A DNA stretch of 63,364 nucleotides from Alphaproteobacteria bacterium. GTDB taxonomy: Bacteria; Pseudomonadota; Alphaproteobacteria; Sphingomonadales; Sphingomonadaceae. The position numbers and the translations under genes are program-made. Below, in pieces: positions 6,171 through 57,331 of this stretch (positions are counted from its first letter, which is position 1; each line of letters opens with the position of its first letter). Under the pieces are notes generated by a model. It ran no database searches, had not been told where the DNA came from, and saw nothing but the letters and a program-made list of their open reading frames with translations. The stretch is taken from contig JAUIIG010000010.1 of NCBI GenBank assembly GCA_030431875.1, positions 1 to 63,364 of the forward strand, given 5' to 3'.

Positions 6171-6392
6171 TTAGTCGGCCAGCAGCCAGATCGCGAGGTA
6201 GATGACGATGAAGCTGCCGAAACCGGCAATTGCACCCACTGCGAAGATAACCCGCACGATCAGCGGATCGATACCGAAGTAGTTCGCGATACCGCCGCAA
6301 ACCCCGGCCACCTTGCCGCGTGCCTTGTCGAGGCGGAATTTCTTTCCGCCAGCGGGGCGCACGGCGTCGTTCTTGCGGTCGAGCTGGGTCAT
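6171..6392 (-). CDS. pspC: PspC domain protein
   Basis: A 73-aa protein made of little more than one PspC domain: a basic N-terminus, KFRLDKARGKVAGVCGGIANYF and a C-terminal transmembrane helix ending AIWLLAD. PspC senses envelope stress at the inner membrane in the phage-shock response. Its ATG overlaps the stop of the upstream 42-aa peptide gene by four bases (ATGA), so translation is probably coupled. With the two peptide genes and a sigma-54-like promoter it appears to form one short unit. No pspA or pspB lies within the window. Confidence 0.88.
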   Translation of the reverse strand: MTQLDRKNDAVRPAGGKKFRLDKARGKVAGVCGGIANYFGIDPLIVRVIFAVGAIAGFGSFIVIYLAIWLLAD

Positions 6393-6517
6393 GCCAGCAG
6401 GCCCATGAACGAAGTGGCATTCGGGTTGGCGAAGCTGCTCACGAGCAGGGTCATCGTCACTGCCAGGGCGGCGAGGCCGGCCACCAGCTTGTTCTGCATT
6501 TCATTGGTCATGGTCAT
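6389..6517 (-). CDS. 42-aa membrane peptide, copy 2 of a tandem pair
   Basis: A small ORF from ATG 6517 to a TGA that overlaps the pspC start. The product starts MTMTNEMQNK, followed by a hydrophobic helix at about residues 11-29 and a short C-terminal tail. It is 22/42 residues identical, without gaps, to the peptide encoded just upstream, sharing ALAVT-like and LLVSSF segments. An AGAGGGA ribosome-binding site precedes the ATG by about 12 nt. The conservation of paralogs at equal length and the overlap with pspC support coding. The function is unknown; a small stress-linked membrane peptide is inferred from context. Confidence 0.78.
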   Translation of the reverse strand: MTMTNEMQNKLVAGLAALAVTMTLLVSSFANPNATSFMGLLA

Positions 6518-6551
6518 GTCTTTCTAGTCCCTCTTGGTTGGTTCGGTTGGT

Positions 6552-6680
6552 TTAGGCGATGAGGCCGGCGATGATGCTTGCTTCCGGGGTCGAGAAGCTG
6601 CTGACGAGCAGCGACGTGGTGACTGCGACAGCTGCGAGAGCGGCCAGGATGCGAGCGGAGAAGTCATTCGTGAAAGTCAT
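6552..6680 (-). CDS. 42-aa membrane peptide, copy 1 of a tandem pair
   Basis: First gene of the minus-strand unit, ATG at 6680 and TAA at 6552, with AGAGGGA about 8 nt before the start. The product begins MTFTNDFSAR and has one hydrophobic helix (about residues 11-29) and a small tail ending AGLIA. It is about 52% identical to the 42-aa product of the next gene, 34 nt downstream, which indicates a tandem duplication under selection. The helix lacks a clear signal-peptidase site, so it is probably membrane-anchored. I know no family name for it. Confidence 0.78.
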   Translation of the reverse strand: MTFTNDFSARILAALAAVAVTTSLLVSSFSTPEASIIAGLIA

Positions 6681-6733
6681 TTTGTTTCCCTCTTGTGTTT
6701 GAATGGTTCGTTTTCGTCCCATGCCCCCAACAT

Positions 6734-6749
6734 TGCAGGAGGTGTGCCA
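6734..6749 (-). promoter_or_regulatory. Sigma-54 (-24/-12) promoter-like site for the peptide-pspC unit
   Basis: The minus strand reads TGGCAC-ACCTC-CTGCA, against the RpoN consensus TGGCAC-N5-TTGCW: one mismatch, with the invariant GG and GC at the correct spacing. The predicted start is near 6723, giving a leader of about 43 nt to the ATG at 6680. The phage-shock operon of enterobacteria is sigma-54 dependent, which fits the PspC domain downstream. Confidence 0.7.
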
Positions 6750-6810
6750 ATTGCGAAAAATGGCGGAATTCTGCGATTCTTGTTAAGGAAGCAGAAAGGT
6801 AGGACTCACA

Positions 6811-6828
6811 ACCAACCTAACAGTTGGT
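6811..6828. promoter_or_regulatory. Inverted repeat, candidate activator site for the sigma-54-like promoter
   Basis: A perfect inverted repeat ACCAAC-N6-GTTGGT, centred about 95 bp upstream of the predicted sigma-54 start. That is where enhancer-binding activators usually bind. A shorter CCAA-TCT-TTGG repeat lies at 6837-6847. The region also precedes recF on the plus strand. The binding protein is unknown. Confidence 0.45.
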
Positions 6829-6904
6829 GATTTTTCCCAATCTTTGGTTGCGCTGATTTGGGTGGAACACAGCGCGCGGCTGGCATAGGACTTTGCGCAC
6901 CGCC

Positions 6905-56264: not shown

Positions 56265-57331
56265 CTGAGCTTCAACGTGGCCAGCCCGATTACGGCGAGC
56301 ACGATGGCGATGATCCAGAAGCGGATCACCACCTTGCTCTCGCTCCAGCCGAGCTGTTCAAAATGGTGGTGGATGGGAGCCATGCGGAAGATCCGCTTGC
56401 CCGTGCGCTTGAACCAGAAGACCTGGATGATGACCGATGCGGTCTCCATCACGAACAGGCCGCCGACAATCAGCAGGACGATCTCGTGGTGGCTGGCAAC
56501 GGCAATCGCGCCCAGCGCGCCGCCAAGCGCCAGCGAGCCGGTGTCGCCCATGAACACGGCAGCAGGCGGGGCATTGTACCACAGGAAGGCGAGCCCGCCG
56601 CCCATGATCGCCGCGCACAGGATCGCCAGTTCACCCGCGCCCGGCACGTGCGGGATGCCGAGGTATTCGGAAAAGTCGACGCGGCCGGCGAGGTAGCAGA
56701 TCACCAGGAAGGCGCCGGCGGCCACCACCACCGGCATGGTGGCAAGGCCGTCCAGCCCGTCGGTCAGGTTCACGGCATTGCCGAAGCCGACGATAAAGAC
56801 GGCAGCGAAGACATAGTAGAACCAGCCCATCGGTATCACCTGCCCGGACAGGAAGGGCACGTAGAGGTCAGTGTTGATCTGGCTCACGATCAGGTAGCTG
56901 GCCACACCCGCCACGATGAATTCGCCCAGCAGGCGCACCTTGCCCGATACGCCCTTGTGGCTGGCCTTGGTGACCTTGTCGTAATCGTCGAGGAAGCCGA
57001 TCAGGCCAAAGCCCAACGTCACCGCGAGACAGGCCCAGAGGAACGGGCTCGACAAGTCCATCCACAGCACCATCGAGATGGTCAGCGAGGTGAGTATCAT
57101 CAGCCCGCCCATGGTGGGGGTGCCGACCTTCTTCTGGTGCGATTCTGGCCCGTCGGCGCGGATCGGCTGGCCCTTGCCCTGCCGCACCCGCAGCATGTTG
57201 ATGAACTTCGGGCCGATCACCAGGCCGATCAGCAGGGCCGTCATCATCGCTGCACCAGCGCGGAAGGTCTGGTAGCGGATGAGGTTGAGGATACCCTCGA
57301 ATTCAAGCCATTCTGCAAGGAAATAGAACAT
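56261..57331 (-). CDS. mraY: Phospho-N-acetylmuramoyl-pentapeptide-transferase
   Basis: A 356-aa integral membrane enzyme that makes lipid I. About ten helices are visible, with [10 protein letters not shown], the catalytic Asp pair in [21 protein letters not shown] and the C-terminal MAPIHHHFE loop. ATG 57331 (MFYFLAEW) is chosen. An 11-nt gap from murF makes this one of two non-overlapping junctions in the cluster. Confidence 0.97.

Follow-up and report, generated by a model that had tools for sequence, protein, structure and literature searches.

The window analysed here, a stretch of 63,364 nucleotides from a bacterium of the Sphingomonadaceae, carries on its minus strand an operon in the order palindrome, sigma-54 site, peptide 1, peptide 2 and PspC2 (Table 1), flanked by a divergent recF and a convergent gene for a queuosine precursor transporter. 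Peptide 1 is preceded by a ribosome-binding site GAGGG at 6692-6688 of the minus strand, the two peptides are 52% identical in alignment, and the sequence ATGA forms the overlap between the stop of peptide 2 and the start of PspC2. A preliminary description of this DNA had reported two paralogous one-helix ORFs of 42 aa followed by a PspC gene with an overlapping start, and its coordinates and distances were correct. Other starts can be read for both peptides. An in-frame ATG at 6722 would extend peptide 1 to 56 aa, but this codon sits at the expected transcript start; for peptide 2 a start at 6511 would give 40 aa, and the second peptide of the five closest named relatives (L175-L179) starts there.

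Table 1. Features of the operon on the minus strand of the window, in the order of transcription
Feature	Position	Strand	Remark
Presumed PspF enhancer TTGGGAAAAATCACCAA (TTGG-N9-CCAA)	6824..6840	-	0 mismatches to consensus
Second conserved promoter block, consensus AAnGGCnGAATTCCGCCATTTT	6757..6778	-	high-information columns in 80 named promoters
Sigma-54 -24/-12 element TGGCACACCTCCTGCA	6734..6749	-	such a site in 80/80 named loci
Likely transcription start CAT	6721..6723	-	26-28 bp past the T of -24; kept in 80 named promoters
Peptide 1, 42 aa, one transmembrane segment	6552..6680	-	
Peptide 2, 42 aa, one transmembrane segment, paralogue of peptide 1	6389..6517	-	
PspC2, short PspC-domain membrane protein, 73 aa	6171..6392	-	PF04024 above cut-off, below PspC equivalog cut-off

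The -24/-12 consensus of sigma-54 promoters consists of a GG and a GC with ten bases between them. In TGGCACACCTCCTGCA, which spans 69 to 54 bp ahead of the start codon of peptide 1 (ATG at 6680), GG and GC are ten bases apart, and the genome contains rpoN; on these two counts the sigma-54 promoter proposed earlier was upheld. The -24/-12 pattern used in that proposal matched once in the window, compared to a mean of 0.09 in 100 shuffles. Nine of the shuffles also gave at least one match, and TGGCACACCTCCTGCA alone is therefore modest evidence. Judging from the usual distance to the -12 element, transcription would start at the CAT. A second conserved promoter block spans -29 to -8 counted from the T of -24. 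When it was considered as an inverted repeat, 12 of 80 loci passed against 55 of 1600 shuffles, an excess over the shuffles, yet most loci failed, and we therefore refer to it as a conserved block only.

PspC2 scored 66.7 bits with PF04024 (cut-off 25) and belongs to the PspC domain family. With the PspC equivalog TIGR02978 it reached 55.7 bits, below the cut-off of 104, over model positions 2-59 of 121, and is not a member of that equivalog; among solved structures no match to PspC2 was found at E 1. In the family survey, PspC genes separate from the psp locus encode 58-79 aa (48 sequences) versus 115-134 aa in psp loci (52 sequences), where the lower length limit was partly set by a filter of at least 90 open codons. 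In a tree on 95 columns, the resolution of which is weak, 41 of the 48 short PspC sequences formed one clade (96/93). The other seven fell among the full-length PspC, so that more than one origin of the short proteins is possible.

The genome (2.96 Mb in 91 contigs) also contains, on contig C13, a complete pspF//pspA-pspB-pspC locus, whose PspF, PspB and PspC exceeded their equivalog cut-offs and whose PspA exceeded the Pfam cut-off. The PspC of this locus (TIGR02978) shares the PF04024 domain with PspC2; its length is 125 aa compared to 73 aa, and PspC2 covers only the first half of the model. The pspA operon opens with the sigma-54 site TGGCACACCCCTTGCT, followed by a 50-codon one-helix ORF and then pspA. 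The Psp core module, PspA, PspB and PspC in one operon, is not what the window operon encodes, as it consists of the peptides and PspC2 only. Given the complete locus on C13, the window operon is therefore an addition to the standard system and not a substitute. The earlier suggestion that the peptides stand in place of PspA and PspB had to be rejected, since pspF, pspA, pspB and a full-length pspC are all present on C13. Two further ORFs that follow pspC on this contig (L002 89-436 and 436-750, minus strand) are PspB-like by eye and show a coiled coil with a repeated DRVxVLERIVTD-like stretch, without an NCBIfam match. PspB duplicates are mentioned in PMC11237479.

The connection between the two loci comes from the palindrome, which was first spotted upstream of the -24 element when the 30 best loci of the family survey were read side by side. 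In the window, 91 bp separate its start from the first T of the -24 element. With two mismatches allowed, the consensus TTGGKRAWWWTYMCCAA has five occurrences in the genome (none for a control with the pattern reversed). Two of these have a sigma-54-like site downstream: one is that of the window, with 0 mismatches, and the other lies between pspF and pspA, with 2 mismatches. Both palindromes begin exactly 91 bp before the TGG. Among the 26 sigma-54-like sites of the genome, only those of the window and of pspA are accompanied by a palindrome with two mismatches or fewer; the other 24 show at least six. By sequence, the window operon has its presumed enhancer in common with the pspA promoter beside pspF, as a member of the PspF regulon would. 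Because the element is common to the promoter beside pspF, PspF is the likely protein to bind it, and the window operon is best read as a second PspF target. The link to the phage-shock response made in the preliminary description was thereby upheld, while its minimal stand-alone module was not, the presumed enhancer being common to the window and pspA promoters at identical spacing. Contig C44 has another near-consensus sigma-54 site (65095-65110, L023) in the neighbourhood of a sigma-54 activator gene (C44:65814), and a second PspA-like gene (56663-57280, L003) is found some 8 kb from the site; the Psp palindrome is absent there (6 mismatches).

Within the family, the palindrome was present with at most two mismatches in 33 of 47 PspC2 promoters and 24 of 60 pspA promoters (base-shuffled means 0.025 and 0.035), the best palindrome being taken where several sites were possible. 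When the pspA promoters were read more widely, 27 of 70 had the palindrome with no more than two mismatches, and the number rose to 46 of 70 when three were allowed; several carried it at other distances. The consensus was built from some of the PspC2 loci themselves, and the pspA promoters and further named loci are therefore the fairer tests. In the best 80 of 207 named relatives, one of which has unread bases in this region, the palindrome was found in 67 with at most two mismatches, at a spacing of 91 bp in 60, 90 bp in five, 89 bp in one and 92 bp in one, the best palindrome again being chosen where there was more than one candidate site. A comparison with the E. coli pspA and pspG regions gave best matches with four mismatches, equalled by 13% and 7% of shuffles; identity with the E. 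coli enhancer is thus unsupported, and the link to E. coli PspF sites was dropped as support. The sigma-54 activator domain has ten matches in the genome, seven of them strong, and another enhancer-binding protein, for example of the NtrC or PEP-CTERM type, might activate the operon, with an accidental link to PspF. We regard this as very unlikely, as the palindrome at 91 bp is common, among the 26 sites, only to the promoter next to pspF and recurs in PspC2 and pspA operons across the family.

The survey of the family covered 79 genomes, with a PspC-domain match in 75 and a PspA match in 75, both being absent from the same four genomes. By coordinates, 49 of the 79 genomes, including the window's own, have a PspC-domain gene away from pspA. 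All 49 such loci showed a TGGCAY-N6-TGC site no more than 760 bp upstream of the PspC gene and, between the two, one or more short ORFs that contain a hydrophobic segment. Among named genomes, 207 relatives were confirmed by a scan; the best 80 were read, and these overlap in part with the survey (L180/L041, L185/L045). A -24/-12-like site and a peptide were found in all 80, which include the Erythrobacter group and Novosphingobium; the nearest among them are an uncultured Sphingomonadaceae bacterium (81%) and Aurantiacibacter (78 and 73%). As counted by script, 41 of these 80 loci have one peptide and 39 have two, L185 (the same locus as L045) being scored as a one-peptide locus since its first peptide lacks an ATG; across all loci one, two or three copies occur. 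The ATGA junction between last peptide and PspC was seen in 56 of the 80. An upstream recF is present in 59; in the remaining 21, of which 18 are Novosphingobium, promoter and peptides are kept without a recognised recF. The gene order recurs in all 49 survey loci and in all 80 named loci, which takes the observation beyond chance. The preliminary description was to fall if site and peptides were not kept in related genomes, and they were kept in every one of these loci.

The peptides, 36-50 aa long across the loci, appear to be maintained as proteins. To compare them we used pN/pS on pairs picked by PspC2 similarity, which are not independent of each other; picking by peptide identity lowers the value (0.24-0.36 that way). 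For PspC2 genes at least 80% alike in DNA, the ratio was 0.30 for the last peptides (135 equal-length pairs of 244) and 0.38 for the first peptides (130 of 167 pairs), compared to 0.24 for PspC2 itself, and most peptide differences in these close pairs were at third positions. Distant pairs (72-80%) gave 0.69 for the last (78 of 915) and 0.71 for the first peptides (44 of 269), values taken from ungapped pairs with synonymous sites near saturation. The sequences of close relatives show selection on the peptides as proteins. Of 121 peptides, the two of the window plus 119 from the named loci, 117 carry a lysine or arginine ahead of the helix and three carry one behind it. Chance ORFs were ruled out by conservation, residue pattern and pN/pS, and the earlier view of the small genes as real and easily missed held.

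Regulatory leaders are another way to account for short ORFs that stand first in both operons and overlap the next gene (by ATGA in the named loci counted above): their translation would control PspC2, or PspA, and the products would be inert. Conservation of the amino acids extends from end to end, helix and C-terminus included, pN/pS in close pairs is well below 1, and the number of copies ranges from one to three, for which a leader would have no use; we therefore give leaders little chance. Type I hydrophobic toxins are likewise short and one-helix, and the best Pfam match of peptide 1 was indeed Ldr (PF13940; E 0.77, 10.3 bits). That match is below the cut-off of 27, Ldr was absent among the matches of 42 survey peptides at E 0.1, and a toxin would hardly be expected in an operon that combines a membrane-stress gene with an activator-dependent promoter. 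We rank this as the least probable of the readings considered. Neither window peptide matched a Pfam or NCBIfam family above cut-off. The 42 survey peptides gave stray weak matches only, three to PhrC_PhrF (best E 0.038), one to each of three DUFs and one to cyt_b559_beta (E 0.00083). A profile of these 42, the window's two included, clearly recovered from their own genome only those two (E 1.7e-11 and 9.6e-11; next 0.027).

The C-terminal end of the peptides is distinctive, as 97 of the 121 end in a hydrophobic residue and alanine compared to one of 51 long ORFs of the window. This end, the V-P-A or A-x-A seen by eye after the helix in many peptides, and the similar anchor followed by a TonB_C domain that forms the first pspA-operon gene of some relatives (two scanned; see below) would all agree with export, in which signal peptidase cuts after the helix (e.g. 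behind VPA or AxA) and the tail, some 6 to 15 residues long, is set free in the periplasm to serve as a signal or protease ligand. The window peptides are without a clean AxA site and their tails are very short, and we consider export improbable, preferring peptides that stay in the membrane as PspC2 partners.

In most of the pspA loci surveyed in the family, the pspA operon likewise begins with a short membrane peptide. Of 80 pspA-type loci, six could not be read as PspA by the script, four had no site and 70 had one. In 64 of these 70, the window's own genome among them, the first ORF has a hydrophobic segment; 58 of the 64 are at most 80 aa long, and 42 of these short ORFs end in a hydrophobic residue and alanine. 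Comparison of the peptides of the two operons gave an hhalign probability of 69%, but two one-helix peptides can score by composition, and kinship between them is no more than a possibility. In six loci (L076, L082, L089, L093, L095 and L261) the first psp-operon gene encodes 162-171 aa with a peptide-like signal anchor, and in the two that were scanned a TonB_C domain above cut-off lies behind the anchor. Such a TonB_C-type protein may be the source of the peptides, by way of its anchor, or the reverse may hold.

Outside the family, we considered 28 pspA loci belonging to other families of the order. They were among the 30 top-ranking loci obtained for 53 genomes with a match, and one (L286) was unreadable. 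All 27 readable loci have a sigma-54-like site before pspA, and the same filter found no one-helix peptide in them. In 15 of 17 loci viewed more closely, a soluble ORF of 48-93 aa lies between site and pspA (L277, L279, L280, L283, L285, L288, L289, L291, L292, L294-L296, L298, L299 and L304); these ORFs often start with MN-L and end in arginines. A locus of another order (L256) shows a weak DUF1127 match between site and pspA (E 0.012, below cut-off), and one of another family in the class sample (L264) has in the corresponding place a 47-aa ORF with a hydrophobic C-terminal half, unlike the peptides by eye. In this small sample, the peptides look confined to the window's family.

Titles and abstract openings of the papers searched gave no description of these peptides or of a second PspF operon in the Sphingomonadaceae, and the main text of two comparative Psp papers contained no word beginning with sphingomon-. 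The section on pspFABC diversity in PMC11237479 covers PspB duplicates, PspD and Toastrack variants, and no such peptides. The window operon resembles an additional branch of the Psp regulon whose logic is closer to that of E. coli pspG. E. coli pspF//pspABCDE with its orphan target pspG agrees with the present case in the PspF/sigma-54 logic, the second operon apart from the first and the small membrane proteins (PMC9239133). In contrast, pspG is a single 80-codon gene without PspC, and the window's family has one to three peptides and a short PspC. E. coli YohP and other small stress membrane proteins are also one-helix and linked to membrane stress, and production of YohP raises PspA and PspC (PMC12719787); the likeness is one of description, and YohP is not reported there as a PspF target or PspC partner.

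Taken together, the window probably carries a second Psp-regulon operon that would be induced by PspF with sigma-54, under stress and together with pspA, and the one-helix peptides are probable PspC2 partners. Damage to the inner membrane would free PspF from PspA, as in E. coli, and the freed PspF would bind the TTGG-N9-CCAA enhancer and drive sigma-54 RNA polymerase to transcribe peptide 1, peptide 2 and PspC2. The peptides are predicted to sit in the inner membrane in an N-in orientation, their short C-terminal tail protruding on the outer side, and PspC2, made by translational coupling to the last peptide, would join them in the membrane. As our best guess, the peptides would serve as its partners, in the role that PspB and the C-terminal half of PspC have in the main system, and might, as effectors, keep the membrane stable or adjust how the cell goes back to its resting state.

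A bolder and doubtful proposal, if somewhat less so than export, is that the peptides are a new class of Psp component in the Sphingomonadaceae, one-helix peptides placed first in each PspF-driven operon, with periplasmic hydrophobic-alanine tails that are read by periplasmic proteases or by PspC2. If true, the phage-shock response would gain an outward-facing sensor or off-switch that is absent from enterobacteria. The new element here is a group of membrane peptides of 36-50 aa outside all curated families tested. With the roles of E. coli PspD called unclear and of PspG not fully understood in the paper cited, those of small membrane proteins in the phage-shock response now become testable. 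Finally, across an alphaproteobacterial family, sequence conservation singles out a candidate PspF enhancer, together with a promoter geometry that is fixed and two operons as targets.
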